Origin: Pirellulales bacterium
Lineage (GTDB): Bacteria > Planctomycetota > Planctomycetia > Pirellulales > DATAWG01
Direction of reading: 5' to 3'
Assembly (NCBI GenBank): GCA_035939775.1
Contig: DASZFO010000165.1
Span: 1-35,043 of the forward strand
Length of the DNA stretch: 35,043 nucleotides
The notes below the pieces were generated by a model. The model made no database searches. It was not told the origin of the DNA and saw only the letters and a program-made list of their open reading frames with translations. Position numbers and translations under genes: made by a program. Below, piece after piece: positions 607-35,043 of the stretch. Each line of letters opens with the position of its first letter. Positions within the stretch are counted from its first letter, which is position 1.

Positions 607-1365
607 TTGGCGCCGAAGTTTCCGGCAGCGCTGAATGGGTTGGGACAACTCTATTTCCTCCAGCGGAAGTATGACCAGGCGCGGAAATACTTGCTTCAAG
701 CAGCGCCGCAATCGTCGGCGGCGTGGTATGGATTGGCGAAACTCTATCTCTTGGAAGGCAAGTTTGACGACGGGGCCAAGTGGGCCAGGAAGGTTGTCGC
801 TTCACCCGACGTGGACGACTTGGCCAAGCAAATGCTCCAGGCCGCCAAAGACAAAAAACTGAGCGACGATTTGCGGAGCCAAATCGAGCCGCCCGAGTTG
901 AACGCCGGCTCGAACCAGCTCGCACAAGCCTGGCAATTGATGAACCAAGGTCGCCGCGATGAGGCCAAGGCTATCTTCGACGCGCTCTTGGCCAAAGCAC
1001 CTGGGGACGCCTCGGCCTTGAACGGCATGGGCTGGTTTCACCTGATCGGCGGCGATGTGGATCAGGCCAAGCCGCTATTCGAAAAGGCGATCGCCGCCGA
1101 TCCGCAAGCCGCCGGCGCGATCAACGGCCTCGCCCGCGTGCTCAAGGCCCAGGGCGACGACGCCGGGGCAATCAAGCTCTGGCAGCAAATGCTGGAAGAA
1201 TTCCCCGGCCCCAACGCCGCCACCTCCGGCCTGGCCGATGCCTATCTGGAAAAGGGCGAGTTCAGAAAAGCCGTTCCGCTTCTGGAGCAGTTGCTCAAAG
1301 CGACTCCGGACGATCAGGAGATCAAAGACAAGCTCGAGCAGGCGCGCAAGGGGAGCGACAAGTAA
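607..1365 (+). CDS. TPR-repeat protein, C-terminal fragment of the split gene
   Basis: The reading frame is open from 553 to TAA 1363-1365, in the same phase as the gene starting at 178. From TTG 607 it gives 252 residues. Several TPR units can be seen with the W/G/Y-A-P pattern: the ends LAPKFPAALNGLGQLYF, ADPQAAGAINGLARVLK and PGPNAATSGLADAYLEKGEF. A less regular linker lies around residues 70-110 (DKKLSDDLRSQIEPPEL). The piece has no membrane segment or signal peptide of its own, and TTG 607 has no clear ribosome-binding site, so independent translation is doubtful. It could be made only by readthrough of TAA 550-552 or by weak internal starts. It may be a recent pseudogene half or the result of a sequencing error. 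A perfect inverted repeat follows nine bases after the stop. Confidence 0.8.
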   Translation: MAPKFPAALNGLGQLYFLQRKYDQARKYLLQAAPQSSAAWYGLAKLYLLEGKFDDGAKWARKVVASPDVDDLAKQMLQAAKDKKLSDDLRSQIEPPELNAGSNQLAQAWQLMNQGRRDEAKAIFDALLAKAPGDASALNGMGWFHLIGGDVDQAKPLFEKAIAADPQAAGAINGLARVLKAQGDDAGAIKLWQQMLEEFPGPNAATSGLADAYLEKGEFRKAVPLLEQLLKATPDDQEIKDKLEQARKGSDK

Positions 1366-1373
1366 ACGGATAC

Positions 1374-1449
1374 ATCCGCAGATTTCGCAGATGGACTCAG
1401 ATTTGGAGAATCGTATTTCCATCCGTGAAAATCTGCGAAATCTGCGGAT
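1374..1449. repeat. Long inverted repeat, 19-bp perfect arms
   Basis: The arm at 1374-1392 (ATCCGCAGATTTCGCAGAT) is an exact inverted copy of 1431-1449, with 38 bases between. The arms contain a short direct repeat (CGCAGAT twice). It lies nine bases after the TPR stop and 30 bases before the end of the opposing SRPBCC gene, so it could end transcription from both sides, although no T-run follows the stem. The arms look like a dispersed repeat unit rather than a normal intrinsic terminator. Confidence 0.75.
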
Positions 1450-1478
1450 AATCTCCCGATGTGCCGTCCGCACGTTCG

Positions 1479-1934
1479 TTATTTCCCCATGAGGCGTTGG
1501 ACGACGCGCCGCCAGCGGCGCTGCCTGTGCCGGTAGAAGACTTGAGCGAAGAGCCAGACCGGCAGCGTGAGCACGCCGGCTTGGATTTCGATCTCGTCCG
1601 AGTACCGGGTTCGGCCGTCCTCCGTCTCGCGGACCGAAATCAGGTGGTCCCATCGACGAATCCAACGGTCTCTTTCGCGGCTCTGGATCTCGCGCTGCTG
1701 GGAGTCTACCCGTTCGACAAAAATCGAGTGCAATCCGAACGGGAGAAAGCTCAACACGTACGTCCGAGCAGAAATCGTTTGGCCGACTTTCACAATCGCG
1801 GGAAACTGGGTCCCACGCGGCGGCACGAACCGCAACAGCGGCCGGATCACTTCCAACAGCAGCCGCGGCGTTTGCACTTCTGCCCACGCCATTTCAGGCG
1901 GGCAATCGAAGATCGATTCGACGTGAACTTTCAT
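1479..1934 (-). CDS. SRPBCC (START/polyketide-cyclase-like) family protein
   Basis: 151 residues; ATG at 1934, with AAGGAG about eight bases upstream (in the CTCCTTT at 1943-1949 read in reverse). The start MKVHVESIFDCPPEMAWAEV is the typical first strand and helix of SRPBCC proteins, in which a hydrophobic cavity binds a lipid-like or aromatic ligand. The middle shows alternating strands (SARTYVLSFLPFGLHSIFVERV; RWDHLISVRETEDGRTRYSD), and the last part is a long helix ending in an Arg-rich tail (YRHRQRRWRRVVQRL). The length is normal for the fold. No signal peptide is seen, so it is probably cytoplasmic. The ligand cannot be inferred. The gene converges with the TPR gene and diverges from the secreted protein at 2193. 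A longer open frame on the same strand (1075-1887) overlaps it but is antisense to the TPR gene. Confidence 0.75.
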   Translation of the reverse strand: MKVHVESIFDCPPEMAWAEVQTPRLLLEVIRPLLRFVPPRGTQFPAIVKVGQTISARTYVLSFLPFGLHSIFVERVDSQQREIQSRERDRWIRRWDHLISVRETEDGRTRYSDEIEIQAGVLTLPVWLFAQVFYRHRQRRWRRVVQRLMGK

Positions 1935-2192
1935 GGCAATTCTCCTTTCAACGGAAACCCCAATCTAATGGAAACCCCTCCTTTCTAAGCGCCGATTCCG
2001 ACGGATTGTTACACGGGTTCGCGCAACTGGAATGTGGCTTCGGTTCGATGTATGCTGACCGAGCCCGACCGACATTCAGGAACCGCGACAAACTGGATAT
2101 TGGAACCACGCGCTGACGGCCAGTCGAGGTGTTCTCCTGCAGTGGTTGATCCGAAGGGACGTGGAACGGAATAGGCAGTGGGAGGCAGTACC

Positions 2193-3452: not shown

Positions 3453-4943
3453 ATGCATCTACCGACGCAATTTCGTTGCGATATTTTGTTCGGCGTCATC
3501 GTTTGCGGCTTGGTCGGGTGCATGGGATCAACAGTGCTAGCCGCCGATGAGCCGCGCGCCGGCTCAAGCGATTCGAAGGCAGGCTCGCAATCGGCGAGCC
3601 CAACTCGCGCCTCGAGCGACATATCGACTGTCCAAGCGCCCGCGCCGGCCAACGAGCCTCCGACCGATTGGATCGATCCAGCCACGGGGCATCGCATCCT
3701 GCGGCTATCTCGCGAGCCGGGCACGTCGACGCTCTACTTTCATCAAAATGCTTACACGCCTCGCGGCGATAAGCTGTTCGTGACCATGACGCCGCCGCGA
3801 TCCGGCCGCGTCGCGCAACCCGGCGGCGGCGAGGCTCCGCCGGCGCGGGGCTTCGTGCCCTTTAGCTCGACGATGGCCACCATTGATCTTTCGGCGCTGG
3901 GCGTCGCGCCCGCCAAGATCGATAAGGTCGGCGACGGGGTTGTACGCGGCGCGGTGGTCGGCAGGAAGTCGCCCACCGTCTATTACATTCGCAGCGAGTT
4001 CGCTGACGAAGGGCGTGTCGACAAAGTCCTGGCCACGAATCTCGACACCCACGAGACCCGCGAGATCGGCAAATTGCCGTTTCGCATGGGATCGGGACTG
4101 GCGGTCAATGCAGACGACACACTTCTGGGGGGCAGTTTTGAGGAGTCACGACCACAACCGCCACAAAACGCCCGCGCCGCCCCCGGGCGGCGGCGCGATC
4201 TGGGGGCCCGCTTGGCGGCGCGGATTCCCATGCGCTTGTTCACATTCGACATCAAGACCGGCGAGGTGAATACTTTCAATCCCAGCACCGATTGGCTTAA
4301 CCACGTGCAGTTCTCTCCTACCGATCCGACGCTGATGATGTTTTGCCACGAGGGACCGTGGGAAAAAGTCGATCGGGTTTGGACGATCCGGACCGATGGG
4401 ACCAGCGCCAAGTTGATGCACCCGCGGACCATGCCCAATGAAATCGCAGGACACGAGTTTTTCGGCTACGATGGCCGCACGATCTGGTACGATCTGCAAA
4501 CGCCGCGCTCAGACAAGTTCTGGCTGGCCGGTGTGAGCATTGAAACCGGTGAGCGCCTGCGTTATCCCCTCGAGCGCTCGCAATGGTCGGTCCATTACAA
4601 CCGGTCGCACGATGGCAAGCTGTTCGCCGGCGACGGCGGCGGACCGGCGAGCGTGGCCAATCGCACACCGCTGCCGGAGAATCGGCCGCTCGACCCGCCG
4701 GGAAACGGGATGTGGCTCTATCTATTCACGCCGCAGCCCGGCGAGCAGGAGCCGATGAAAGTCGGCGGCGAGACGGTGAAAGTCGGCAAGTTCGCGGTGG
4801 AAAAACTCGTCGATTTGTCGAAGCACAACTACTCGTTGGAGCCGAATCTAACATTCTCTCCCGACAACAAGTGGATTATCTTCCGCTCCAACATGCACGG
4901 GCCAACGCACGTCTACGCCGTCGAGGTGGCGAAGGCGCCGTAG
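3453..4943 (+). CDS. ogl: Oligogalacturonate lyase (PL22 family), exported
   Basis: 496 residues; ATG 3453, with GAGGGG at 3439-3444 as ribosome-binding site. The family is clear from DWIDPATGHRILRLSREPG (72-90), LYFHQNAYTPRGDKL (94-108), HVQFSPTDPTLMMFCHEGPW (284-303), DRVWTIRTDG (307-316) and GHEFFGYDG (333-341): a seven-bladed beta-propeller. PL22 enzymes split unsaturated digalacturonate and short oligogalacturonides by beta-elimination, the last step of pectin breakdown before 5-keto-4-deoxyuronate metabolism, using a Mn2+ bound by histidines. His residues at 284, 299, 334, 381 and 386 are candidates. Unusually, it carries an export signal: residues 10-23 are hydrophobic and end in LVGC, a lipobox-like site, so it may be a lipoprotein; cleavage after VLA (30) is the alternative. 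There are two low-complexity inserts (115-132 and 231-258). The stop TAG lies inside the following REP. Confidence 0.88.
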   Translation: MHLPTQFRCDILFGVIVCGLVGCMGSTVLAADEPRAGSSDSKAGSQSASPTRASSDISTVQAPAPANEPPTDWIDPATGHRILRLSREPGTSTLYFHQNAYTPRGDKLFVTMTPPRSGRVAQPGGGEAPPARGFVPFSSTMATIDLSALGVAPAKIDKVGDGVVRGAVVGRKSPTVYYIRSEFADEGRVDKVLATNLDTHETREIGKLPFRMGSGLAVNADDTLLGGSFEESRPQPPQNARAAPGRRRDLGARLAARIPMRLFTFDIKTGEVNTFNPSTDWLNHVQFSPTDPTLMMFCHEGPWEKVDRVWTIRTDGTSAKLMHPRTMPNEIAGHEFFGYDGRTIWYDLQTPRSDKFWLAGVSIETGERLRYPLERSQWSVHYNRSHDGKLFAGDGGGPASVANRTPLPENRPLDPPGNGMWLYLFTPQPGEQEPMKVGGETVKVGKFAVEKLVDLSKHNYSLEPNLTFSPDNKWIIFRSNMHGPTHVYAVEVAKAP

Positions 4944-4962
4944 GTCAGGCCTCTGGCCTGAC
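4940..4962 (+). repeat. REP palindrome, left copy (GTAG + hairpin)
   Basis: GTAG (4940-4943) is followed by a perfect hairpin: GTCAGGCC, loop TCT, GGCCTGAC (4944-4962). The GTAG tetranucleotide at the foot of the stem is the hallmark of REPs recognised by RAYT transposases. The TAG of this motif is also the stop codon of the lyase gene, so the repeat begins inside the coding sequence. It may limit transcript decay or end transcription, as REPs do elsewhere. Confidence 0.88.
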
Positions 4963-4989: not shown

Positions 4990-5559
4990 ATGCGGCAATA
5001 TTTCCACATATCCGATTATCGCCGCTATTTCGTCCCTGGGGGAACGTACTTCTTCACGCTCGTCGCCGAGCGGCGTGAGCCGCTGTTCGCCAAGAACTGG
5101 ACGCGGCGCACCCTGGGAACCGTCATCCGCCGCTGTTTCTCGAAAAACCCAGTCGCGGTCGTCGCCATGGTCTTGCTGCCCGACCATCTACACGCGTTGT
5201 GGGCTTTTCCGCCCGGCGACGACCGCTACTCGATGCGTTGGAATTGGATCAAGGGGGAATTCACCAAGGCGTTTCTCGCCAACGGCGGCCGCGAACAGCG
5301 GCGCAAGCCGTCGCGCATTCGTGAACGGCGCCGCAGCGTTTGGCAACGTCGCTTTTGGGAACATACGATTCGCGACGAGGAAGACTTGGAAAGCCATTTT
5401 GATTACATTCATTACAACCCCGTCAAACACGGATACGCCCAGCGGCCGCGCGATTGGCCGTGGTCCAGCTTTCATCGCTGGGTCGAGCGCGGCCATTACG
5501 ATGTCGATTGGGGCGCGGGTTACGTTCAACCGAAGATGCCTGGCGACGCGGGAGAGTGA
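4990..5559 (+). CDS. rayT: REP-associated tyrosine transposase (RAYT, Y1/HUH family)
   Basis: 189 residues, matching the Transposase_17/Y1 family. The start YFVPGGTYFFTLV is the usual first strand. The HUH metal site is LPDHLHALW (H66, H68), and YIHYNPVKHGY (139-149) carries the catalytic tyrosine, probably Y139, with the conserved NPVKHG. WPWSSFHRWV is the usual C-terminal signature. RAYTs nick and rejoin single-stranded REP DNA and are thought to spread REPs; most are single-copy, vertically kept genes. The basic insert at 100-118 is longer than in enteric members. The ATG at 4990 has no obvious ribosome-binding site, and the left REP hairpin lies 27 bases before it, so translation may be kept low. 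It appears intact. Confidence 0.92.
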   Translation: MRQYFHISDYRRYFVPGGTYFFTLVAERREPLFAKNWTRRTLGTVIRRCFSKNPVAVVAMVLLPDHLHALWAFPPGDDRYSMRWNWIKGEFTKAFLANGGREQRRKPSRIRERRRSVWQRRFWEHTIRDEEDLESHFDYIHYNPVKHGYAQRPRDWPWSSFHRWVERGHYDVDWGAGYVQPKMPGDAGE

Positions 5560-5575: not shown

Positions 5576-5598
5576 GTCAGGCCAGAGGCCTGACCTAC
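5576..5598 (-). repeat. REP palindrome, right copy (inverted)
   Basis: GTCAGGCC, loop AGA, GGCCTGAC (5576-5594), then CTAC (5595-5598). Read on the minus strand this is GTAG plus the same hairpin as the left copy, with no mismatches. It ends 32 bases before the next gene and 17 bases after the transposase stop. Confidence 0.88.
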
Positions 5599-5630: not shown

Positions 5631-6044
5631 ATGAGCAGCGCGGGTGCAGCGGCCGCGGCAGCCGGAGCGGCGGCGGCCGCTGAGCGGATGCGGCAAGAGG
5701 AGGAAGAAATGACCAAGTACGCCGACGCCGATCTGAAAGACGATTGGGAATTCAAGATCGTCCGCTCGAATACAGCCAGCTTCAAGAATCCCGAAACGCT
5801 GCGGCGAGTGTGCGAAGAAGAGGCCCAGGCCGGCTGGATCCTATTGGAAAAGTTCGACAATCAACGGTTGAGGTTCAAACGCCCCGCCAGCGCGCGAGCC
5901 GGTGATGCGGCGCTCATCGGTTACGATCCTTATCGCTCGAACTACGGAATCTCGGCACTGGCAATCGTCATGATTGTACTGTTCTGCACATTGTTGGGCG
6001 TTGCCGCGATCATCGGGATCGTTGCGCTCTTCGTGAAACACTGA
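5631..6044 (+). CDS. Small membrane protein of unknown function, Ala-rich N-terminus
   Basis: 137 residues; ATG 5631 with GAGGG about eight bases upstream. Residues 1-17 are nearly all Ala/Gly, followed by an acidic helix (RMRQEEEEMTKYADADL). The central block DDWEFKIVRSNTASFKNP ... AGWILLEKFDNQRLRFKRP (37-84) is a compact alpha/beta module of the DUF4177-like kind (WE-x-K-V at the start, GW-x-L at the end of a helix). A hydrophobic segment covers about 106-133 (SALAIVMIVLFCTLLGVAAI), so the C-terminus is anchored in the membrane with the module in the cytoplasm. There is no catalytic motif. The stop TGA (6042-6044) touches the remnant repeat that follows. The function is unknown; similar proteins are, from general knowledge, common in planctomycetes and some cyanobacteria. 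Confidence 0.78.
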   Translation: MSSAGAAAAAAGAAAAAERMRQEEEEMTKYADADLKDDWEFKIVRSNTASFKNPETLRRVCEEEAQAGWILLEKFDNQRLRFKRPASARAGDAALIGYDPYRSNYGISALAIVMIVLFCTLLGVAAIIGIVALFVKH

Positions 6045-6093
6045 AATCCGGTGGAGACTTTCCCCTTCGCCCAGCCGGATTTGTTAAGCGCTC
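6044..6093. repeat. Degenerate type-B repeat element / hairpin after stop codon
   Basis: AAATCCGG (6044-6051) pairs with CCGGATTT (6075-6082). The right side continues as CCGGATTTGTTAAGCGCTC, which matches the right end of the element at 17571-17663 apart from one base. Between the arms is a decayed core (GGAGACTTTCCCC instead of GGGGACNGTCCCC). It starts on the last base of the preceding stop codon and may act as a terminator. Confidence 0.6.
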
Positions 6094-6211
6094 TTTTAAC
6101 ATTTGTTGCATTTGCGTGGCATTCGTTGCAAGACGATGGTATGATCTCACCATTGCGCACACGGAATGACCGACGCCAATGCAGTGTTTCTCATCGAGAG
6201 GAGACCGGATC

Positions 6212-8230
6212 ATGAAGTTTTGTCGTCTCATTGCATCCGTTGGCGTCGCAGTCTGTCTCCTTGCAGGTCATTCCGAGGTCAGTCGTTCGGCGCCGCTGCT
6301 GTTTCCGCAACTTGACGGCAACGGCAACGAGATTACCTCGCCCGTGACAACGAGTTTTCCCAGTGTTTATTACCCCGCTGGCATCGGCTTCAAGCCTGCG
6401 AAAACCGGCGACCCGATTTCGCCATACATCCCGGGCACCACCGCGGACCCGACCGCGCTCACCGTGACCGACGGCGGCAACATCCCCGTCCTTGACGTGA
6501 TCGTCGCCAATGCCAGCACCCTTAGCATCAACGGCACGGGTCAGGTCGGCGGAAACGTCGAGGTCCACGATACCAGCACCGTAAACATGAGCGGGAACAG
6601 CATGCTGGGTTTCCATCCGGGGATTGCCGCACTGTTTGGCTTCGACCAAAGCAAGTTGAATATCAGCGGCGGCACTATCGCCGGCGGACTGGAGGCCGAT
6701 GACCAAAGCGTTGCCACTCTCAGCGGTGGACAGGTTAACCTCGTAAACGGCTTTGGCGGAACGGTCAACGTAACTGGCGGCACCGTCGTCAACGGTGCTC
6801 AAGCGAACGCCGGTGGCACGGTTAACATCTCCACTCCTGAAGATTTTGGCGCCGGACTCGCCGCTTTCCAGGGTTCTCACATCACCATGAGCGCGGGCGG
6901 TCGTATCACCTTGCTTCAGGCCAGCGACAACTCCGACATCACGCTCAGTGGCGTTACCCTGCTTGGCAATGTTAACGCCGATAACAGCATTGTGAATTAC
7001 GATGGCGGGACGATTGTCGGCAATATCTTCTCCCAGAACGGCGCGGTCGTTTTCACCAGCGGCAATACGATGGTCACCGGCACCGTGACTGCCAACGGCG
7101 GTTCCGTGCACGTGAGAAGTGGCACTCTCACTTCCTTCCAGTCATCAGGTACGGGCGGTATTACGATGGACGACGGCGTCGTGGGTTCCACGGTTGTGGC
7201 CACCGACACGGGAGTGATCCAAGTGCATGGAGGCACGATCAATGGGACCGTGTCTGCTCAGGGGACCAGCGTCATCACTCTCGACGGTCCAACTGTGGCC
7301 GTGAATTCCGACGTTAACTCCTATGACACCAGCAAAGTCAATCTCTTCGGTACTCAAGTTACCGGCACCGTAAGCGCGACCGACACCAGTCTCATCAGCC
7401 TGTACGCCGCCAGCGTCACCGGTGATCTCGGGACGTTCAAATCTGGCTTGGCGGTCATAAACGGCGGCACCACCATCAGTGGTAATGTCGTTGCCTCTAA
7501 CTCCAGCCACGTTCAGTTGGTTGGCGGAAACGTCGGCTCGGTGACCACGTACAATTCCGCGAGTGCACAGTTGGACGGCAGCCAAGTTAAGGGGGACGTT
7601 TCCGCCCTGAATTCAAGTTCCATCATGCTTGATAACATGTTCGTCACGGGCAATATTACGGCACAGCAACAAAGCATTATCACGATCAGCGAGAGCATTA
7701 CCTACGGCGGACAAATCGAAGCGTTCGGCACCAGCCGCATTGTCCTGCTTGGTCATTTGCTACCGAACAACCAGCCACATGCGCTGAGTTTCGACGGCAT
7801 CGAGGGTAGCGGACCAAGCTTTCTCACACCCGATGGCGAACCCGCATTCGCCTCGATCTTCCTCCATGACAGCAGCTCGCTCGAGTTCGATGGTCACAGC
7901 TTGTCCGCCGCCCTCATCGATCCCATGAACGGCGGCGGCGCGTACAGCGAGTATGCAATCTCGGGTCTCTTTGCCGACGGCACCCCAATCCCGTCGGGTC
8001 TGGATCTGTTTGTCGCCAACGGTTCGGCCGCCTCCTTCCAACTCGTCGAAGCCGTCCCGGAACCGGCCTCCGCTTCATTGATGGCCGTCGCCGCGCTGGC
8101 TCTGCTTGCCCGCCGAAGACACACTGAGAGCCTATCCGAGAACCGCCTGGGCAAAGGGGACAGTCCCCGTTTTGCTCCGCGGACTGCGCAAAAGGGGGAC
8201 AGTCCCCGGCGGTTCTCGGATAGGCTCTAA
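6212..8230 (+). CDS. PEP-CTERM protein with repetitive, probably beta-helical body
   Basis: ATG 6212 is chosen over ATG 6179 because AGGAG (6199-6203) precedes it and the signal peptide begins there (MKFCRLIASVGVAVCLLAG). The product has 672 residues. The body is a long series of short units rich in S, T, N and G with alternating V/I (DTSTVNMSGNSMLG, QSKLNISGGTIAGG, SSHVQLVGGNVGSV), as expected for a parallel beta-helix. Residues 615-640 are a PEP-CTERM sorting signal: VPEP, a hydrophobic stretch, then ARRRH. Such proteins are exported and handled by an exosortase-type system. Oddly, after the Arg cluster the frame runs a further 34 codons through a repeat element (8127-8228), adding ENRLGKGDSPRFAPRTAQKG and more; the TAA lies at the element's edge. 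PEP-CTERM proteins normally end just after the Arg cluster, so this tail is acquired. Confidence 0.82.
   Translation: MKFCRLIASVGVAVCLLAGHSEVSRSAPLLFPQLDGNGNEITSPVTTSFPSVYYPAGIGFKPAKTGDPISPYIPGTTADPTALTVTDGGNIPVLDVIVANASTLSINGTGQVGGNVEVHDTSTVNMSGNSMLGFHPGIAALFGFDQSKLNISGGTIAGGLEADDQSVATLSGGQVNLVNGFGGTVNVTGGTVVNGAQANAGGTVNISTPEDFGAGLAAFQGSHITMSAGGRITLLQASDNSDITLSGVTLLGNVNADNSIVNYDGGTIVGNIFSQNGAVVFTSGNTMVTGTVTANGGSVHVRSGTLTSFQSSGTGGITMDDGVVGSTVVATDTGVIQVHGGTINGTVSAQGTSVITLDGPTVAVNSDVNSYDTSKVNLFGTQVTGTVSATDTSLISLYAASVTGDLGTFKSGLAVINGGTTISGNVVASNSSHVQLVGGNVGSVTTYNSASAQLDGSQVKGDVSALNSSSIMLDNMFVTGNITAQQQSIITISESITYGGQIEAFGTSRIVLLGHLLPNNQPHALSFDGIEGSGPSFLTPDGEPAFASIFLHDSSSLEFDGHSLSAALIDPMNGGGAYSEYAISGLFADGTPIPSGLDLFVANGSAASFQLVEAVPEPASASLMAVAALALLARRRHTESLSENRLGKGDSPRFAPRTAQKGDSPRRFSDRL
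8127..8228. repeat. Type-A palindromic element, 21-bp terminal inverted repeats, two GGGGACAGTCCCC cores
   Basis: The ends 8127-8147 (AGAGCCTATCCG...) and 8208-8228 are perfect 21-bp inverted repeats. Inside are two identical cores, GGGGACAGTCCCC at 8156-8168 and 8195-8207, both in the same orientation. The element is 102 bases long (34 codons), without stops in the gene's frame. Its last base is the T of the PEP-CTERM gene's TAA. A second copy of the same type lies at 32145-32264. Confidence 0.88.
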
Positions 8231-8236
8231 GCCGCG

Positions 8237-15231: not shown

Positions 15232-15392
15232 CGTTCGCGGCTCCTGATTTGCGAGGGGGTTGGAGCCATTGAGAATACTCCTGGGCAGGGAGTCGCGAAA
15301 GGGGTCGCCTTTCCAGCCAAGTTGCTTGCTCCGCGGGGTTGGGCTAATGATAATGCGAGGCAACCTGTTCAACATCTGGAAACGTGAGACTT

Positions 15393-17405
15393 ATGGCATT
15401 GACGATGAGCATCATAGAAGACCAATGGCGGTTCCCCTCACCCCGGCCCGCTCCCAGAGGGAGAGGGAGAAAGAATTGCCTTCGGCTATTTGAGTCGATT
15501 CTGCGCGCGATCGCGATTGCGGCGGTCTTGCTGATTCAAGTTATCTGCTCGACCGCCGTCATTGCGCAGGCGAATCCGCCGTCGAAGCCGACGGCGGAGG
15601 CCGTCTATCTTCGCGAGAATTACACGAAATACGAGTACAAGATTCCGATGCGCGACGGAGTGAAGCTGTTCACGTCGGTCTATGCGCCCAAAGACGACTC
15701 GCAGCCGTACCCGATTCTGTTGACGCGCACCCCGTACAGCGTCAAGCCCTACGGCGTCGACGTCTATCCCAACGATCCCGGCGGGCCGCTCGCGCATTAC
15801 GCCAAGGAGCGATTCATCTTCGTCCTCGAAGACGTGCGCGGGCGGTATGGCTCCGAGGGGACGTTCGTCCAAATGCGGCCGCAGCTTTCCGTCAAATCCG
15901 GACCGCACGACATCGACGAGAGCACCGACGCCTACGACACGGTCGACTGGCTCGTGCGCAACATCCCCAACAACAACGGCCGGGTGGGCATGATGGGGAT
16001 TTCTTATCCCGGATTCTACACGGCGGCGGGGATGATCGATTCCCATCCGGCTCTCAAGTGCGCCTCGCCGCAGGCGCCGATCACCGATTGGTTCGTCGGC
16101 GACGATTTCCATCACAACGGCGCGTTTTACTTGCCGCACGCGTTTCGCTGGCTCTCCCGATTCGGGCAGAAACTCGAGGAGCCGACGCGCGAGGAACCCA
16201 AGCCATTCGACTACAAGACGCCCGACGGCTATGAGTTTTATCTCAATCTCGGCCCGCTCGGCAACATCGATAAGTCGCTGTTCAAGGGGAAAATTGAATT
16301 CTGGGACGAGCTGATGAGCCACGCCAATTACGATGAATTCTGGCAGTCCCGCGATCTTCGCCCGCATTTGAAGAACGTCAAATCGGCCGTGATGACGGTC
16401 GGGGGTTGGTACGACGCGGAGGACCTGTTCGGCCCATTGTCCGTTTTTCACGAGGTCGAGCGGAACAATCCGGAAACGACGAACCTGCTCGTGGTCGGGC
16501 CGTGGGCGCACGGCGGTTGGTCGTCGAGCGACGGCGATCACCTGGGCAACGTCCGGTTTTTCGCCAAGACGTCCGAGTTTTTTCGCAACGAGATCGAGCT
16601 GCCGTTCTTGAAGCACTTTCTGAAGGATGACAAGAAATACGATCTGCCGAAAGCCTATGTCTTCGAGACCGGCACGGCGCAATGGCGGCGGTTTGACGCC
16701 TGGCCGCCGAAGAATACGCGCGAGAAGACGCTCTATTTCCGCGCAGGCGGACGGCTGTCGTTCGACCCGCCGGACGAGAAGGAAGGCGAATTCGACGAAT
16801 ACGTGAGCGATCCCAATCATCCCGTCCCCTACATTCCCAATATCGCGATCAGCATGACGCGCGAGCACATGCTCGACGACCAGCGCTTCGCCTCCTCGCG
16901 CCCCGACGTGGCGGTCTATCAGACCGACGTGCTGGAAGACGACGTGACGATCGCCGGACCGATCACGGCGCGGCTCAACGTCTCGACCACGGGGACCGAT
17001 TCGGATTGGGTCGTCAAGCTGGTCGACGTTTACTCCGGCGATTACCCAAACCCGGAGCCAAACCCCGCGGGCGTTCAAATGGGCGGCTATCAACAGCTCG
17101 TTCGCGGAGAAGTCATGCGGGGAAAGTTCCGCAATAGCTTCGAGAAGCCCGAGCCATTCGAGCCGGGCAAGAAAGCGAAAGTAGAATGGGTCATGCCCGA
17201 CGCCTATCACACCTTCCGCCGCGGGCATCGGATCATGGTGCAAGTGCAAAGCACGTGGTTCCCGCTGGTCGATCGCAATCCGCAGAAGTTCTGCGATATT
17301 TACCGCGCCCAAGCGGACGATTTTCAAAAGGCGACCGAGCGGATCTATCACTCGCCGCGAGCAACCTCGGCGATTCAAGTGCTGCAGTTCGCGCCGCCGA
17401 AATAA
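15393..17405 (+). CDS. CocE/NonD family hydrolase (X-Pro dipeptidyl-peptidase S15-like), exported
   Basis: About 670 residues from ATG 15393; GTG 15384 and ATG 15405 are in frame and equally possible, as none has a good ribosome-binding site. Residues 40-62 resemble a signal-peptide core (AIAIAAVLLIQVICSTAVIA) ending near AQA. The alpha/beta-hydrolase domain follows: YKIPMRDGVKLFTSVYAPKD, then VLEDVRGRYGSEG. The nucleophile is S204 in GISYPG, the acid D341 in GGWYDAEDL and the base H373 in GPWAHGGW. The last 200 residues are the jelly-roll domain of X-Pro peptidases (PDVAVYQTDVLEDDVTIAGP; AYHTFRRGHRIMVQVQS). The family covers glutaryl-7-ACA acylases, cocaine esterase and X-Pro peptidases; the substrate is undetermined. 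Unusually, a dispersed 40-base repeat (15430-15469) lies in frame between the start codon and the signal-peptide core. Confidence 0.88.
   Translation: MALTMSIIEDQWRFPSPRPAPRGRGRKNCLRLFESILRAIAIAAVLLIQVICSTAVIAQANPPSKPTAEAVYLRENYTKYEYKIPMRDGVKLFTSVYAPKDDSQPYPILLTRTPYSVKPYGVDVYPNDPGGPLAHYAKERFIFVLEDVRGRYGSEGTFVQMRPQLSVKSGPHDIDESTDAYDTVDWLVRNIPNNNGRVGMMGISYPGFYTAAGMIDSHPALKCASPQAPITDWFVGDDFHHNGAFYLPHAFRWLSRFGQKLEEPTREEPKPFDYKTPDGYEFYLNLGPLGNIDKSLFKGKIEFWDELMSHANYDEFWQSRDLRPHLKNVKSAVMTVGGWYDAEDLFGPLSVFHEVERNNPETTNLLVVGPWAHGGWSSSDGDHLGNVRFFAKTSEFFRNEIELPFLKHFLKDDKKYDLPKAYVFETGTAQWRRFDAWPPKNTREKTLYFRAGGRLSFDPPDEKEGEFDEYVSDPNHPVPYIPNIAISMTREHMLDDQRFASSRPDVAVYQTDVLEDDVTIAGPITARLNVSTTGTDSDWVVKLVDVYSGDYPNPEPNPAGVQMGGYQQLVRGEVMRGKFRNSFEKPEPFEPGKKAKVEWVMPDAYHTFRRGHRIMVQVQSTWFPLVDRNPQKFCDIYRAQADDFQKATERIYHSPRATSAIQVLQFAPPK
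15430..15469 (-). repeat. Dispersed 40-bp repeat (PHPGPLPEGEG type), copy 1
   Basis: The reverse complement of this segment matches 29363-29402 at 39 of 40 positions (start CTCCCTCTCCCTCTGGGAG, end GTGAGGGGAACC). It contains a CCCTCT/AGAGGG palindrome. Here it is read in another frame as FPSPRPAPRGRGRK in the leader of the CocE hydrolase. Sequences of this kind are known to recur in many unrelated high-GC genomes. Confidence 0.85.
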
Positions 17406-17406
17406 G

Positions 17407-17423
17407 AGCCTGTGATCCAGGCT
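17407..17423 (+). terminator. Small hairpin after the CocE hydrolase stop
   Basis: AGCCTG (17407-17412) pairs with CAGGCT (17418-17423), loop TGATC, one base after TAA 17403-17405. There is no T-run. Its strength as a terminator is doubtful; the REP pair lies just behind it. Confidence 0.3.
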
Positions 17424-17447
17424 GCTAGCGGCGGCGGGGCAAGAGTC

Positions 17448-17511
17448 GGTCAGGCGTCTTCGCCTGACCAAAGCGAATCGTGCTGCTGTCAGGCGAGAAC
17501 GCCTGACCTAC
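17448..17511. repeat. Inverted REP pair (BIME-like), variant of the RAYT-linked REP
   Basis: First hairpin: GGTCAGGCG, loop TCTT, CGCCTGACC (17448-17469). Second: GTCAGGCG, loop AGAA, CGCCTGAC (17488-17507), then CTAC (17508-17511), i.e. GTAG plus hairpin on the minus strand. They are separated by 18 bases. Compared with the REPs around the transposase, the innermost stem pair is changed from C-G to G-C, so pairing is kept. The left copy has GTCG instead of GTAG. Confidence 0.82.
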
Positions 17512-17570
17512 GGCCTGCGATTCACGTATTGACGCTACTTCAATGGCGATCTAGACTTTCGCTCCCCTTA

Positions 17571-17663
17571 GAGCGTCTAACAAATCCGGCGGGGACTGTC
17601 CCCCTTTTGCGAACAGCAAAACGGGGACTGTCCCCTTCTTCCAGCCGGATTTGTTAGGCGCTC
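17571..17663. repeat. Type-B palindromic element with two GGGGACTGTCCCC cores
   Basis: Ends GAGCGTCTAACAAATCCGGC (17571-17590) and 17644-17663 are inverted repeats matching at 19 of 20 positions. Cores GGGGACTGTCCCC lie at 17591-17603 and 17623-17635 in the same orientation. The element is 93 bases long. It is the only complete type-B copy in the window; partial copies lie at 6044-6093 and 27601-27643. It ends 35 bases before the start of the glycosyltransferase gene. Confidence 0.87.
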
Positions 17664-17698
17664 GTGATCGCCCACATTCAAGGCATGGAAGCTGGCGG

Positions 17699-19636
17699 AT
17701 GCGATCGGTAGCGTCAGAACAATTGCGGCATCAGCTTTTGATTCTGCTGACGGCCGGGGCGGTCTTCTTCATCTCGTTGGGGAGCGCGCGGCTTTGGGAT
17801 GAAGATGAGACCGAGTATTCGCGCTGCGCCCGCGAGATGATGGCCCGCGGCGACTGGGTGGTGCCCACCTTCAACCACCATCCGTGGCTGGAAAAGCCGG
17901 TCCTCGTTTATTGGCTGATGATCGGCTCGTTTCGCGTTTTCGGGCCGACGGAGTTCGCCGCGCGGTTCCCCTCGGCCATCTGCGCCTTGGGGACGGCGCT
18001 GGTCGCCTATCAACTCGGACGGCGGCTGTTTCGGCCGCAAGTCGGACTTTGGGCCGGATTGATTCTCGCGACGAGCTTGATGTTCGTGGTGGTCGGCCGG
18101 GCGGCGACGCACGACTCGACGATGATCTTCTTCACGACGCTATCGCTCCTGGCCTATGTCGTCGGGATGGGACCGGCGTTTTGGAAAACGGGGACAGTCC
18201 CCTTTTCTTCCGCCGAAGCGATTGCGCCCGCGATGGACGAGGAGGCCAAAAAAGGGGACAGTCCCCGCCGCATGACGCGGTTTCGCGCGGTGCTCCCGAA
18301 ATCGTGGTGGAGCTTCGTTGCGATGTATGTTCCGCTGGGATTGGCCGTGATGGCGAAAGGCCCGCTCGGCGTGCTGCTGCCGATCGCGGCGCTCGGCATG
18401 TTTGTTTGGATCAGCGGATCGGCCGCGAATCCGGATTTGGACAGCCCGCTCGCGGAACCGGACGAAAACCAAACTCGCTTCCAGCGAACGTTGAGAAACA
18501 GTTGGCGGCGGCTGATTGTGATGGCGGCCGACTTTCCCGCGGCGACCTGGGCGATGCGGCCTTTGACCCTCGCCGCGATCGTGCTGGCGATCGCGGCCCC
18601 CTGGTATGTGCTGGCCGGCATTCGCACGCACGGCGAGTTCTGGCGGGTGTTTATCTGGGAGCACAACGTTCAATACATCCTGCATTCGAAACAGGGTCAT
18701 GCCGGCTCGGCCTTATATTTCTACCCACTCGCGCTGGTCGTCGGCTTCTTTCCCTGGACGATCGCGCTGGGCCTGGGGGCGGTCTATGCGGCCCGCCATA
18801 TTCGCCGCCGCGCCCCCCACTTTCGCGCCTGCGCCTTGGCCGCCGCTTGGTGCCTGACCTGGTTCGTCGTCATGTCGCTGGTCGGCACCAAGCTCCCGCA
18901 CTACATCGTCCCCGCCTACCCGATGCTCGCGGTGATCGCCGGGCTTTGGATCGCGGATTGGATCGCCGGATTGCAGTCGAAAGCCGCCGAACGCTGGATC
19001 GCGGCCGGGTTCGTGGCGCTCGGCGTGCTGGGGATCGTTTTCGTGATCGGGCTGCCGCCGGCGATCCGGCATTGGGCGCCCGGACAGCCGAGCTTCAACT
19101 GGCTCGGGCTCGTTCCAGTGATCGGCGCGATGTTCGGCTGGACTTTTCAACGGCGGCGGCAAACGGCTCTCTCGGCAGCGACGATTCTCGTCACCGGAGG
19201 GGCGCTGTTCTTGGGGATCTTCGGCTTTGCCGCTCCCCGAATCAGCACTCAGCAGTCGAGCGTGCGCATGAACGACGCCGTGCGCCAGTTCGGAACCGAA
19301 TCGACGGCGGTCGGCGTCTACAGGGCCTATTTGCCTGGGCTGATTTATTATGCCGATCGGCCCCAGCCGATCGTCGAGCTGTACCGGCGCGGCGACGTGC
19401 GACAACTACTCGACAAGAGCGACGACTTTCTCGTGATCACCGATCTGCCGGGATTGATCGAGCTGCGGCCGCAACTTCCCGTCGGCGCGGTGGTGCTCGA
19501 ACAGCAGCCGCGATTCTTGAAGGGAGGCGAACTGCTCGTTGTCGGGCGCCTCCCCGCGGCCATCTCTCCGCCCGGCGGTGATCCGCATTCCACGGCAGCC
19601 GGCGCTACCCGCCCCCTCGGCGGACTCACGCGGTGA
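17699..19636 (+). CDS. GT-C family glycosyltransferase (ArnT/PMT-like, GT39/GT83 type)
   Basis: ATG 17699 gives 645 residues; the upstream TTG 17651 would place the start inside a repeat. The N-terminal membrane helix (12-29) is followed by SARLWDEDETEYSRCAREMM (29-48), the acidic loop typical of ArnT-like enzymes, which transfer sugars from polyprenyl phosphates to lipid A or proteins on the outer face of the inner membrane. HHPWLEKPVLVYWLM (60-74) and AARFPSAICAL (87-97) are conserved in the family. About ten more hydrophobic segments follow, and a soluble C-terminal domain (about 530-620). The donor and acceptor cannot be specified. Odd: residues 163-190 (KTGTVPF ... KKGDSPR) come from two GGGGACAGTCCCC cores and lie between two membrane helices, just before VAMYVPLGLAVMAKGPLGV. 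The frame is intact. Confidence 0.88.
   Translation: MRSVASEQLRHQLLILLTAGAVFFISLGSARLWDEDETEYSRCAREMMARGDWVVPTFNHHPWLEKPVLVYWLMIGSFRVFGPTEFAARFPSAICALGTALVAYQLGRRLFRPQVGLWAGLILATSLMFVVVGRAATHDSTMIFFTTLSLLAYVVGMGPAFWKTGTVPFSSAEAIAPAMDEEAKKGDSPRRMTRFRAVLPKSWWSFVAMYVPLGLAVMAKGPLGVLLPIAALGMFVWISGSAANPDLDSPLAEPDENQTRFQRTLRNSWRRLIVMAADFPAATWAMRPLTLAAIVLAIAAPWYVLAGIRTHGEFWRVFIWEHNVQYILHSKQGHAGSALYFYPLALVVGFFPWTIALGLGAVYAARHIRRRAPHFRACALAAAWCLTWFVVMSLVGTKLPHYIVPAYPMLAVIAGLWIADWIAGLQSKAAERWIAAGFVALGVLGIVFVIGLPPAIRHWAPGQPSFNWLGLVPVIGAMFGWTFQRRRQTALSAATILVTGGALFLGIFGFAAPRISTQQSSVRMNDAVRQFGTESTAVGVYRAYLPGLIYYADRPQPIVELYRRGDVRQLLDKSDDFLVITDLPGLIELRPQLPVGAVVLEQQPRFLKGGELLVVGRLPAAISPPGGDPHSTAAGATRPLGGLTR
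18190..18266 (+). repeat. Pair of GGGGACAGTCCCC cores inside the glycosyltransferase gene
   Basis: Identical cores lie at 18190-18202 and 18254-18266, same orientation, 64 bases apart start to start. They lack the terminal arms of types A and B. Their translation (TGTVPF and KGDSPR) keeps the gene's frame. Confidence 0.85.
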
Positions 19637-27600: not shown

Positions 27601-27643
27601 GGGGATTGTCCCCTTCTCGCCGCCGGATTTGTTAGGCACGCTC
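27601..27643 (-). repeat. Half type-B element at the end of the TMTC-like gene
   Basis: On the minus strand: GAGCGTGCCTAACAAATCCGG (27643-27623; one base longer than the full element's end), then a spacer and GGGGACAATCCCC (27613-27601), a core with one change. Its first two bases are the GA of the gene's TGA stop. The other half is missing. Confidence 0.7.
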
Positions 27644-30203
27644 AAGGTCGCCGGGGTTGGTGATAGGGGAAGCCGGTTTCATAGAAGTGCTTGATTTGGT
27701 CGCGTAACGCCGTTGCCAACTCGTCTCGGTTCGATTGGCCGACTGCCAAATCGAGCGCCCGCTCGGCAATTTCGACGGCCTTGGGGTATCGGCCCACCTC
27801 GGCTTCGGCGGCGGCCAGCGTCGCGAGGGTTTCCGGATTCTGCCCGCCGGTGAGCTGCACGGCTCGTTGGGCCAATTCAACTGCCTCCACGCCGTCCCGG
27901 AGCGAATCGTCGGGGTCGGTCGCAAGCGTCCAGGCCAATTGGTCGAGAATCGCCGGATAGTTCGGCTGCAAGCGAACGGCCTGACGCCAATGGTCGATCG
28001 CCTCGCGAGTCTTTCCTTGGCTGTCGAGCAAGCGCCCCAGATGGATGTGGACCTCGGCGGAATTCGGCTCGATGGCCAATGCCCGTTGGTAATGGGCGAT
28101 CGCGTCTTCGGTCGTCCCCTCGAGCGCGAGAATCCCCGCCAGCTTGCTGTGGGCATCGGGCGACCGCGGATCGATCTCGAGGGCTCGGCGAGCCTGCACT
28201 TCGGCGGCGGCGAGCTTCCCCTGGCGGGCCAATAAGCCGGCGAGGTTCGCGTGGGCGGGCGCGTGGTCGGGCTTGAGCAGGATGGCCGCGTTGATTTCGG
28301 CCATCGCTTCGACGAGCTTCCCTTGCCAGCCCAGGAGTTCGCCCAAGGCGTTATGGGCCTCGGCATAGTCGGGCTTGAGGCGCAGGGCATCACGGTATTG
28401 GCCGATCGCCGTATCCGCCTGGCCGCGTTTTGCCAACGCCAGGCCGAGATTGAAATGGGCCTCGGCATAGTCGGGCCGCGCCCGAATTGCCTGCTTGAAC
28501 AGCCCGATGGCCTCGTCCAGACTGCCGCGCAGCGCCAATTCGCTTCCTAAGTTCTGATAGGATTCCGCGGCGCTCAGGTCGTTTGGATCGATTTCCAGCG
28601 CACGCCGGTATTGAGCGATCGCCTCGTCGCTCCTTTTCTTATGAGAAAGGGCACAGCCGAAATTGCAGTGAGCCCGAGGATTGTTGGGCCGTTTGTTCAC
28701 TGTGTCTTGCCACATTGCAAGCTCCGAGCGGTAATCGTGATTGCGAACGACCGTCGTCCAGGCCAACGCGACAATCGCCGCGAAAACGACGGCCGCCGGC
28801 GCCAATCGCATCGCCAATCCAGTCGCCCGAAGCCGAGACCACAAGCGATACGCTCCCAGGACTACAAGCGCCGCGAGCGGCGCGAGCGGCAAATACATGC
28901 GATGCTCGAAGGCCGCGTCGAGAATCGGAACGAAGCTCGACGTGGGGGCCAGAATCAGAAAAAACGCCGCGGCGCAGAACCCCAGAGCCGGCCGCTTGGC
29001 CAGCGCCCATCCGGTCAGACCGAGCAGCGTGAGGATTATCAGCGCCGGCGGTACGATCTGCCCGAGCGTGCGTGCCGGGGGAAGATCGTAGGCGAAGCAC
29101 AGCGAGTCAGGCCAAAACGCCAACTGCAAATACATGACGATCACTTGCGGCTCGGTGATCAGATACGTCCAGGGAGTGAACCGCCGAGTGTGCAGGCCGG
29201 TCGTGGCGTCGTGGAAATTCGTCCAGAGGAGCACCCAGACCACGACGCCCCACGTCGCGAAGATAGCGGCATACAGTCCCCACCGCTCCGCGAAGGCCCG
29301 CCGCAACAAGCGACTCCAATTCTTTGAGTGGCCAACGCCCGCCGCCGAAGCCCACGACGAGCCTCCCTCTCCCTCTGGGAGAGGGCCGGGGTGAGGGGAA
29401 CCCGCATTCGACCCGACAACCGCGCTCAAGAAAATAACGTCATAGAGCAGTATCAGAACTGGCGCGGTAAACATCACTTCCTTGGTCGCCATGCCGAGCA
29501 AACAGTTGGCCACGGCGGCGACGTACCACAGCGTCCGCCGCTGCGGCGAGCGATCGTCGCTCGTCGCGCCGCGAATCACGCAGTAAAGCGTTAGCAGATA
29601 AAACAGGCCAACGAGCGATTCGGCCCGCTGAATGACGTAAGTGACCGCTTCCGTCTGGAGCGGGTGGACGACCCAGATGAGCGCCACGGCCGCGGCCAAG
29701 GGTGTCGCGACGGCGCCGAATTGATCCTTCAACCGCGGCAGGATCAACGTCCGCCGCACGATTCCGAACAGAACCAGTGCGGCTGCCAGGTGAATCGCCA
29801 GATTGACGGCGTGATAGCCCCAAACGTTGACTCCGCCCAGCGCGTAGTTCAACGCCAGCGACAAGCTGACGATCGGCCGGCCGCCGACGCGCGCGGCATC
29901 CACCGGAAAGAGCACGTCGCTAATCGGCCATAAATGGCGAATCGTCGTGTTTTCGACAATCCATCCCTGATCGTCGAACACGAACGCCCCCTCGAAGCTG
30001 TTGGCATAAGCGGCCAGCGCCGCCAGCGAAATCGCACCGACGGCCAGCAGCGTCGCTCGGCGAGACCAGGGAGGTCTTTCGCCTAGAGGTCGAGAAATAA
30101 CGGATGGTTCAACAGCCGTCAGCGGGCCGTTCGACGAAGGCAATTCGTCTATTTGGCCACGCTCCGGCGAAATGGTCAGGTTGGACCCGTCTGTTCCTCC
30201 CAT
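27642..30203 (-). CDS. TMTC-like membrane glycosyltransferase with C-terminal TPRs
   Basis: 853 residues; ATG 30203 with GGAAG a few bases upstream. The N-terminal 50 residues are cytoplasmic, then about ten membrane helices up to 500. The first luminal loop has FVFDDQGWIVENTTIRHLW (D77, D78), the acidic pair typical of GT-C enzymes, and later RAESLVGLFYLLTLY (193-207) and FEHRMYLPLAPL. This layout, helices then TPRs, is that of the TMTC/DUF1736 family, whose animal members are O-mannosyltransferases; bacterial function is unproven. Residues 517-840 are about nine TPRs (YRRALEIDP, YRDALRLKPDYAEAHNALGE, RALEIDPRSPDAHSKLAGIL). Odd: PHPGPLPEGEG (270-280), in a loop after a membrane helix, is the translation of a dispersed repeat. 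The last codon touches a half type-B element. It is preceded by the hybrid kinase with a gap of 47 bases. Confidence 0.85.
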   Translation of the reverse strand: MGGTDGSNLTISPERGQIDELPSSNGPLTAVEPSVISRPLGERPPWSRRATLLAVGAISLAALAAYANSFEGAFVFDDQGWIVENTTIRHLWPISDVLFPVDAARVGGRPIVSLSLALNYALGGVNVWGYHAVNLAIHLAAALVLFGIVRRTLILPRLKDQFGAVATPLAAAVALIWVVHPLQTEAVTYVIQRAESLVGLFYLLTLYCVIRGATSDDRSPQRRTLWYVAAVANCLLGMATKEVMFTAPVLILLYDVIFLSAVVGSNAGSPHPGPLPEGEGGSSWASAAGVGHSKNWSRLLRRAFAERWGLYAAIFATWGVVVWVLLWTNFHDATTGLHTRRFTPWTYLITEPQVIVMYLQLAFWPDSLCFAYDLPPARTLGQIVPPALIILTLLGLTGWALAKRPALGFCAAAFFLILAPTSSFVPILDAAFEHRMYLPLAPLAALVVLGAYRLWSRLRATGLAMRLAPAAVVFAAIVALAWTTVVRNHDYRSELAMWQDTVNKRPNNPRAHCNFGCALSHKKRSDEAIAQYRRALEIDPNDLSAAESYQNLGSELALRGSLDEAIGLFKQAIRARPDYAEAHFNLGLALAKRGQADTAIGQYRDALRLKPDYAEAHNALGELLGWQGKLVEAMAEINAAILLKPDHAPAHANLAGLLARQGKLAAAEVQARRALEIDPRSPDAHSKLAGILALEGTTEDAIAHYQRALAIEPNSAEVHIHLGRLLDSQGKTREAIDHWRQAVRLQPNYPAILDQLAWTLATDPDDSLRDGVEAVELAQRAVQLTGGQNPETLATLAAAEAEVGRYPKAVEIAERALDLAVGQSNRDELATALRDQIKHFYETGFPYHQPRRP
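29363..29402 (+). repeat. Dispersed 40-bp repeat (PHPGPLPEGEG type), copy 2
   Basis: Matches the reverse complement of 15430-15469 at 39 of 40 positions. On the gene's strand it is read as PHPGPLPEGEG, a peptide well known from many unrelated bacterial proteins because the same repeat enters genes in this frame. Confidence 0.88.
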
Positions 30204-31915: not shown

Positions 31916-32144
31916 GATCCGCCCTCCCGGCAAAGTAATTGTGCTTGGTGTTCAAGAAATGAGACCGGATTCCCACGTCGAACCGGGAGCGGGCCGAATT
32001 GGACCAAGCTGCAATCATTCTTGAATCGCGCAATCCAGGCGAGAGCACAGCGCCACCGTCTGCCTAGCATGTTACAGGCGGAAGGGTTGCTCGCAAGTCG
32101 GGAGAACCGCCCATTTGACGTGCTGGAATTCGCTACACGGCGTT
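31916..32144. other. Noncoding region between the BON gene and the type-A repeat
   Basis: It probably holds the promoter of the BON-kinase-TMTC-like genes. I find no good pair of promoter boxes. The minus-strand frame 31476-32048 is a shadow of the BON gene region. Confidence 0.35.
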
Positions 32145-32264
32145 AGAGCCTATCCGAGAACCGCCGGGGACTGTCCCCTTTTGTGAAGCGGGCACCATCG
32201 TCCGATGGTCGGGAACAAAAGGGGACTGTCCCCCTCGTCTTCGTGCGGTTCTCGGATAGGCTCT
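32145..32264. repeat. Type-A palindromic element, second copy
   Basis: Ends 32145-32164 (AGAGCCTATCCGAGAACCGC) and 32245-32264 are perfect 20-bp inverted repeats, the same as at 8127-8228. Cores GGGGACTGTCCCC lie at 32166-32178 and 32221-32233. The middle adds its own hairpin (ACCATCG/CGATGGT around 32194-32209). Length 120 bases. It is intergenic, 96 bases before the kinase start. Confidence 0.88.
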
Positions 32265-32359
32265 TAGTGCAATTCGCCGCCGTGCTGTAGGATGGTCGAA
32301 GGCGGAAGTCCGCGGTTGGTTCGGATTTCGGCTTCAGCCGGTTTTGGGGGCCGCGAACG

Positions 32360-34656: not shown

Positions 34657-35043
<387 letters not shown>

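Follow-up and report, generated by a model that had tools for sequence, protein, structure and literature searches.

A REPIN with a complementary change at the top stem pair of its hairpins in a Pirellulales genome

Introduction

The systems closest to the locus analyzed here are described in sections of the reports cited below, on which all our comparisons with the literature draw. Among 24 families of REPs that carry a GTAG tag, most are split into sub-families with alternative complementary residues in the stem, and GTAG repeats have also been reported in the PVC superphylum (PMC3733652). The paired state was found to be preserved in modified REPs, an observation taken in 2010 to suggest that complementary mutations are selected (PMC2817692), and two slightly different REPs beside one gene for a RAYT (REP-associated tyrosine transposase) were noted in 2013 (PMC3686654). 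REPINs were defined in PMC3686654, following their first description in PMC3116915. For the TnpAREP of S. maltophilia, swapping blocks of the stem for their complements had no drastic effect, a mid-stem mismatch reduced or nearly abolished cleavage, and changes in the third or fourth base of GTAG (GTTG being the change at the third) or in the first loop base, which is an essential G in that system, abolished it (PMC8266576). The y and z REPs of E. coli, in turn, carry a required bulge (PMC8266576).

The locus described here resembles the GTAG families in its tag, a stem within their range of 6-13 bp, a short loop and the arrangement in dimers, but its copy number is low (the arm pattern has 27 exact copies in 6.39 Mb), the families being compared by their description in part of that report (PMC3733652). 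As in Stenotrophomonas, a RAYT gene lies between two inverted REPs, and we count as a further likeness the hybrid units with REPs of two RAYTs described in the pertinent sections of those reports; the host here, however, is a planctomycete, and the stem sequence is its own (PMC2817692, PMC3686654). The resident RAYT passes the NCBIfam family cut-off and aligns with E. coli TnpAREP (4er8) over residues 8-176, whereas the stems, unlike the bulged REPs of E. coli, pair throughout, like those of the S. maltophilia model (PMC8266576). Compared with known REPINs, those of this genome fall into three classes by their top stem pair and are few. Pseudomonas genomes hold many more REPINs. As the cited sections attest, REP sub-families with complementary stem changes are already known, and the unit that we describe is a further example, in a planctomycete. 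What is added is a top pair that covaries, and the caution that pairing is kept between sub-families, not within resident copies.

Results

The window, i.e. the whole analyzed stretch of 35,043 nucleotides, is contig C165 of a 6.39 Mb genome that is 96% complete and divided into 384 contigs. The unit under study and its neighbours are the following.

15384 to 17405, forward strand: upstream neighbour, a hydrolase of the CocE/NonD or S15 peptidase type
17445 to 17511, no strand assigned: 67-base REPIN made up of two inverted hairpins of the G-C sub-family, beginning 39 bases past the stop of the upstream gene
17445 to 17468, forward strand: left REP hairpin, GTCG-GTCAGGCG-tctt-CGCCTGAC, tag GTCG replacing GTAG
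17488 to 17511, reverse strand (read from 17511 to 17488): right REP hairpin, GTAG-GTCAGGCG-ttct-CGCCTGAC, tag intact
17651 to 19636, forward strand: downstream neighbour ORF, a PMT-type glycosyltransferase (Pfam PMT_2, 61.8 bits, cut-off 26.1), start codon position tentative

The stretch from 17445 to 17511 is a single REPIN, formed by two GTAG-type REP hairpins. The tags of the forward hairpin at 17445 and of the reverse hairpin at 17511 face outward, and the two hairpins, closely spaced and inverted, are mirrored halves of a single unit. On the right, GTAG is followed by 8 bp; on the left, 8 bp follow GTCG, which is one tag base off and fits decay after insertion. The initial annotation recognized the unit but started it at 17448, cutting off the first tag, and it held GTAG to be conserved in the pair, which is the case in one of the two hairpins.

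The pattern TCAGGC-N6-GCCTGA occurs twice in the window, compared to 0.00 expected from shuffles of the window, and in the whole genome TCAGGC-N2-14-GCCTGA is found at 41 sites, compared to 3 for the reversed pattern. Folded singly as single-stranded DNA, both hairpins reach -10 kcal/mol (z -5.3 and -7.0). The minimum-energy fold of the 77-base stretch 17440-17516 (-24.7, z -5.2) is one long hairpin in which the REPs pair to each other and not each to itself. Neither REP hairpin is followed by a T run, as an intrinsic terminator would be, and the two terminator-like sites within 17380-17760 are structures other than the REP hairpins. The NCBIfam matches of the downstream ORF are below their cut-offs.

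The RAYT gene of the window and the REPs linked to it lie upstream.

4940 to 4962, forward strand: RAYT-linked REP of the C-G sub-family, GTAG-GTCAGGCC-tct-GGCCTGAC
4990 to 5559, forward strand: RAYT (Pfam PF01797, 33.2 bits, cut-off 23)
5576 to 5598, reverse strand: the other RAYT-linked C-G REP, mirroring that at 4940

The product scores 187 bits with NCBIfam NF047646.1 (REP_Tyr_transpos; cut-off 80), which places it in the family, and its alignment to PDB 4er8 has an E value of 4e-38. The translation contains the stretches HLH and YIHYNPVKHG, which we take to be the catalytic motifs. The gene is enclosed by two inverted REPs (4940 forward and 5598 reverse), and C-G is the sole REP form that flanks it. 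Comparison of the hairpins agrees with the claim that the pair at 17445-17511 differs from the RAYT-linked REPs at one stem pair with both sides changed: pair 8 is G-C instead of C-G. The loops had been said to differ as well; their letters do, and so does their length, four versus three bases.

For a genome-wide view of the top pair, we used an arm pattern in which the tag and the seven lower pairs are fixed whereas pair 8 and the loop are free. The window genome contains 27 exact copies, with a Watson-Crick pair at position 8 in 26 and G-T in one, and 11 further matches with one mismatch (among these 11, one hairpin is counted on both strands), which marks the hairpin as a dispersed repeat. 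At up to 3 mismatches, the reversed controls gave 8 and 13 matches versus 21 and 23, and 8 and 6 versus 16 and 18; because these controls are not small, weak matches of the arm pattern need caution.

When the stretches were fetched and one tag mismatch and loops of 2-5 bases were allowed with an intact lower stem, the set comprised 32 copies of the window genome. Pair 8 is C-G in 10 of these, G-C in 9 and T-A in 11, the remaining two being G-T and G-G, and these three classes bear out the proposal of a REP sub-family. The initial annotation had also suggested a covariation check over the REPs of the genome. In this check, pair 8 was Watson-Crick in 30 of the 32 copies as opposed to a mean of 10.3 with shuffled partners, and the value of 30 was never reached in 10,000 shuffles, although this contrast is inflated because the shuffles assume independent copies and the copies are related. 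T is the first loop base in 24 of the 30 Watson-Crick copies, across the three classes, and is likely to be a point of contact. The number of loop types is 6 among the 9 G-C copies and 6 among the 10 C-G copies, and on these counts we dropped the idea that the G-C class is older by virtue of greater loop variety.

The 11 REPINs of the window genome include seven with arms of a single class, two mixed ones and two with a degraded partner. The mixed REPIN on contig C104 combines a C-G with a T-A hairpin, implying that the classes of the top pair were handled together at least once. Two near-identical 60-base T-A REPINs lie on contig C356 (14387-14446 and 14979-15038), their starts 592 bases apart, among ORFs that, by our reading of the ORF list, include ABC-transporter-like and GntR-like frames. 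The REPs at C127:3408-3431 and C365:3574-3597 share an additional T in the left arm (GTCAGTGCC ... GGCCTGAC) and are possibly a further small, bulged sub-family.

The arm pattern is present in 23 of 396 genomes of the order, and there were 0 control matches for the exact pattern over these genomes among the rows listed. At 139 listed places (at most 10 per genome), pair 8 is Watson-Crick in 128, T-G in three and unpaired in eight; the Watson-Crick places among the matches listed are T-A in 92 cases, C-G in 20, A-T in 12 and G-C in 4. Counting each combination of genome and loop once among the listed places, 49 of 60 are Watson-Crick compared to a shuffled mean of 23.2. Each of the four Watson-Crick types is represented in the order, and in more than one family.

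The lower stem behaves differently from the top pair. Among 46 rows of the window genome, 14 are altered in pairs 1-7, which, minus two second readings, corresponds to 12 hairpins with one (6 hairpins), two (4) or three mismatches (2); some of those with two and three may be chance matches. A compensated change in pairs 1-7 was found in none of these 12, nor, as read from the listings, in any of 7 three-mismatch matches outside the 46-row scan, one of them on contig C198. Thus, the folded form is not maintained by selection in individual resident copies. Variants in which pairing is broken, which had been named as the evidence that would speak against selection for the folded form, do exist in the shape of these 12 hairpins, and that proposal survives in part: the covariation of pair 8 in the genome (30/32) and in the order (49/60) supports it, whereas the uncompensated lower-stem changes do not. 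The sub-families differ from one another in a paired manner while the resident copies decay.

A second RAYT gene matching the variant, which the initial annotation had envisaged, did not turn up. None of the 6 Y1_Tnp places of the window genome is flanked by the G-C form, and beside the five further Y1_Tnp places (on C309, C88, C100, C83 and C89) there is no GTCAGG hairpin in the stretches scanned. Exact matches to the G-C hairpin pattern were found in 48 stretches from public genomes, most of them belonging to Brocadiaceae and other Planctomycetota; TCCT is a frequent loop among them and also the commonest G-C loop in the window genome (3 of 9). Two of the 48 contain a match to a RAYT profile, at distances of 1.7 and 2.4 kb from the hairpin; across the 48, the hairpin often lies near the edge of its stretch, with one side unseen. 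In 13 other genomes with a G-C hairpin, 72 of the 80 Y1_Tnp places were inspected as far as the contigs reach, and none of these 72 is flanked by the G-C form. In most of the Brocadiaceae stretches, the G-C hairpin is one arm of an unequal unit, the other arm being GACAAGCG/CGCTTGTC or similar. This unequal REPIN (GTCAGGCG/CGCCTGAC plus GACAAGCG/CGCTTGTC) is dispersed in genomes of Brocadiaceae and others (loci L240-L283), with no RAYT directly beside it in the stretches scanned. By exact matching, a symmetric G-C REPIN whose arms are both perfect turned up in one of 392 sampled genomes of the phylum, namely that of the window, at C41:1502-1568 and at 17445-17511; as far as the sample shows, the G-C REPIN thus forms a sub-family specific to this lineage.

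Relatives of the resident RAYT at an E value of 1e-30 or better are present in 65 of the 396 genomes of the order. We scanned the surroundings of 82 sequences from such searches (L074-L091 and L094-L157) and of the window for GTAG hairpins, leaving out G207:C178 and G360:C1. In 43 of the 83 sequences, a stem of at least 7 pairs directly follows the tag, and 35 of the 43 have a RAYT stretch of at least 150 residues and entered a Mantel test. Under a constant tag, the stems beside RAYTs are highly diverse (GTCAGGC, GGTGCGT, GGTCCGC, GTCATGC, GGCCGGT and others), with 17 different commonest lower stems among the 35 loci. RAYT distance and stem distance are correlated across these loci (Mantel r 0.38, with 0 of 5000 permutations as high). 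Because the scan required perfect pairing, pairing itself is not among its results. The five nearest RAYTs with a readable hairpin (L094, L095, L096, L118 and L077; 58-65% identity) all have the GTCAGGC arm, topped by A-T, by C-G, or by an open position with the loop tgt. Two others outside these five, L074 and L075, 61-62% identical to the resident RAYT, have no perfect GTAG hairpin; their flanks start with GTAGGTCAGGCA, and the matching end is distant. At other RAYT loci, the loop can open with a base other than T (as in gaa, ccc, acc and others).

A scan tolerant of mismatches covered 54 RAYT or Y1_Tnp sequences with at least two GTAG copies; L316 is the same locus as L218 of genome G148, and neither adds a change. 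Where both sides of a stem position were altered, 23 of 29 cells are Watson-Crick versus one third expected at random, these being cells and not independent events. In a further 36 cells a single side is altered, which gives G-T in 10; beside RAYT genes, unpaired changes are therefore as common as paired ones. At L353 and L359, a T-A and an A-T hairpin occur within the same REPIN beside one Y1_Tnp gene.

Similar hairpins can also belong to another RAYT, as indicated by locus L218 of genome G148, where T-A hairpins enclose a distant RAYT-like gene. This gene aligns with the resident RAYT in one 49-residue stretch with 35% identity; with 30.2 bits it exceeds the Pfam cut-off for Y1_Tnp, and with 56.6 bits it falls below that of NF047646.1 (cut-off 80). 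At the same locus (1281-2030, reverse strand), the downstream REPs are read into the RAYT-like frame, adding a tail with the peptide VGQAFQPD. Genome G001, of the same family as the window genome, carries 43 REPs with the arm pattern, T-A or T-G among the matches listed (10), and has no close relative of the resident RAYT, only remote ones. Genome G386 carries 24, T-A among the matches listed (10), and has no Y1_Tnp match at E 0.001. Taken together, L218, G001 and G386 indicate that sub-families can outlive RAYTs or belong to others.

Discussion

The reading that we favour, with modest confidence, is that the unit at 17445-17511 is a REPIN of a variant sub-family, copied by a RAYT of the resident type that needs pair 8 to be paired but does not need any particular pair. 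Under this model, the enzyme would act on the folded single strand and would recognize GTAG together with the seven lower pairs, GTCAGGC/GCCTGAC, and probably also the base that opens the loop, a role that we infer for this base from the bias to T; at the eighth position, pairing would be required and the identity of the pair would be irrelevant, so that this pair would be read by its shape only. A new sub-family would be founded when a source whose top pair differs, yet still pairs, is copied onward. Selection would act at the time of copying, when only foldable hairpins become sources, and the sub-families would consequently differ by paired changes, whereas an inserted copy would no longer be maintained, its tag and stem mutating without compensation. 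The arms at the nearest RAYTs, the mixed units at L353, L359 and C104, and the paired state of 23 of 29 doubly altered cells make one RAYT that accepts any paired top plausible. On sequence comparison, mobilisation of the G-C sub-family by the resident RAYT is plausible, and we infer this RAYT, and not a lost relative, to have copied it. Some observations count against the favoured reading: the RAYT flanks are C-G only, 7 of the 11 REPINs are of a single class, as separate cognate systems would also give, one-sided stem changes beside RAYT genes are as frequent as paired ones, the T-A class borders the distant gene at L218, G001 has many REPs of the arm pattern without a close relative of the resident RAYT, loops at other RAYT loci do not all begin with T, and the single relative found for the resident RAYT in the PDB is that of E. 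coli, where a bulge in the REPs is required.

An alternative source is a different RAYT, now lost or located in an unassembled part of the genome, with GTCAGGCG/CGCCTGAC as its cognate hairpin and the G-C REPINs as its relics. We regard this as a real but less probable possibility. Across the order, the flanking stem varies along with the RAYT; in G148 a distant RAYT-like gene is bordered by T-A hairpins, REPs can occur without a RAYT, as the 24 copies of G386 demonstrate, and a genome that is 96% complete in 384 contigs might hide a gene. Nevertheless, the lower arm of the G-C form is the same as at the nearest relatives of the resident RAYT, mixed REPINs occur, the variety of loops is no sign of a greater age of the G-C class, and none of the 72 Y1_Tnp places inspected, out of 80 in 13 genomes, is flanked by a G-C hairpin, with RAYT profile matches in two of the 48 G-C stretches, 1.7 and 2.4 kb off, even if the hairpin is often near an edge. 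Acquisition of the G-C REPINs from other planctomycetes with the same 24-base hairpin appears improbable: the exact hairpin is indeed found in the 48 public stretches, often with the loop TCCT that is commonest here, but most of the Brocadiaceae stretches have a different partner arm, which makes their whole unit another element and transfer unlikely, and the symmetric G-C REPIN was found, by exact matches, in the window genome only, one of 392 in the phylum.

It is less probable still that the host keeps the hairpins as a transcription terminator or an mRNA stabiliser between the hydrolase and the glycosyltransferase genes. In favour of such a role, the unit is located 39 bases past a stop codon and folds well, but the absence of a T run behind either hairpin leads us to reject the terminator reading, the terminator-like sites nearby being other structures; moreover, this genome shows no compensation of changes in pairs 1-7, and the unit is one among many dispersed copies. 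Chance palindromes in G+C-rich DNA can be practically discounted. A few unrelated palindromes, such as those on C71 and C336, are present in the genome list, and the reversed controls at up to 3 mismatches are not small, but this explanation is refuted by the shuffles of the window (2 found, 0.00 expected), by the genome-wide reversed control (41 versus 3 sites) and by the control over 396 genomes, with 0 matches to the exact arm pattern among the rows listed.

The favoured reading can be extended to a more general conjecture, which we consider rather doubtful as a whole. In this order of planctomycetes, RAYT specificity would depend on the tag, on pairs 1-7 and on the base at which the loop starts, with the top pair recognized by shape alone, so that one transposase could serve several 'isoshape' sub-families at once; in addition, the distantly related lineages of the resident RAYT and of L218 would have come to share the near-identical hairpin GTAG-GTCAGGC-N-loop-N'-GCCTGAC through convergence or REP capture. 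REP hairpins offer a simple example of folded single-stranded DNA that is read by a protein, and the planctomycete RAYT loci, with 17 different commonest lower stems at 35 loci, lend themselves to mapping the hairpin positions that a RAYT reads.

Two additional features of the window were noted. The contig stops within a 16S rRNA gene (34657-35043; Rfam RF00177), a common assembly break point, and this is the sole Rfam match in the window at the gathering threshold. A second set of inverted repeats, with GGGGACTGTCCCC cores and arms such as CCGGATTTGTTAG or GAGCCTATCCGAGAACCGCC, is found at 6030-6094, 8122-8231, 17567-17663, 18182-18273, 27601-27647 and 32143-32269, one copy beginning 56 bases beyond the REPIN at 17445-17511, and looks like another small mobile repeat.
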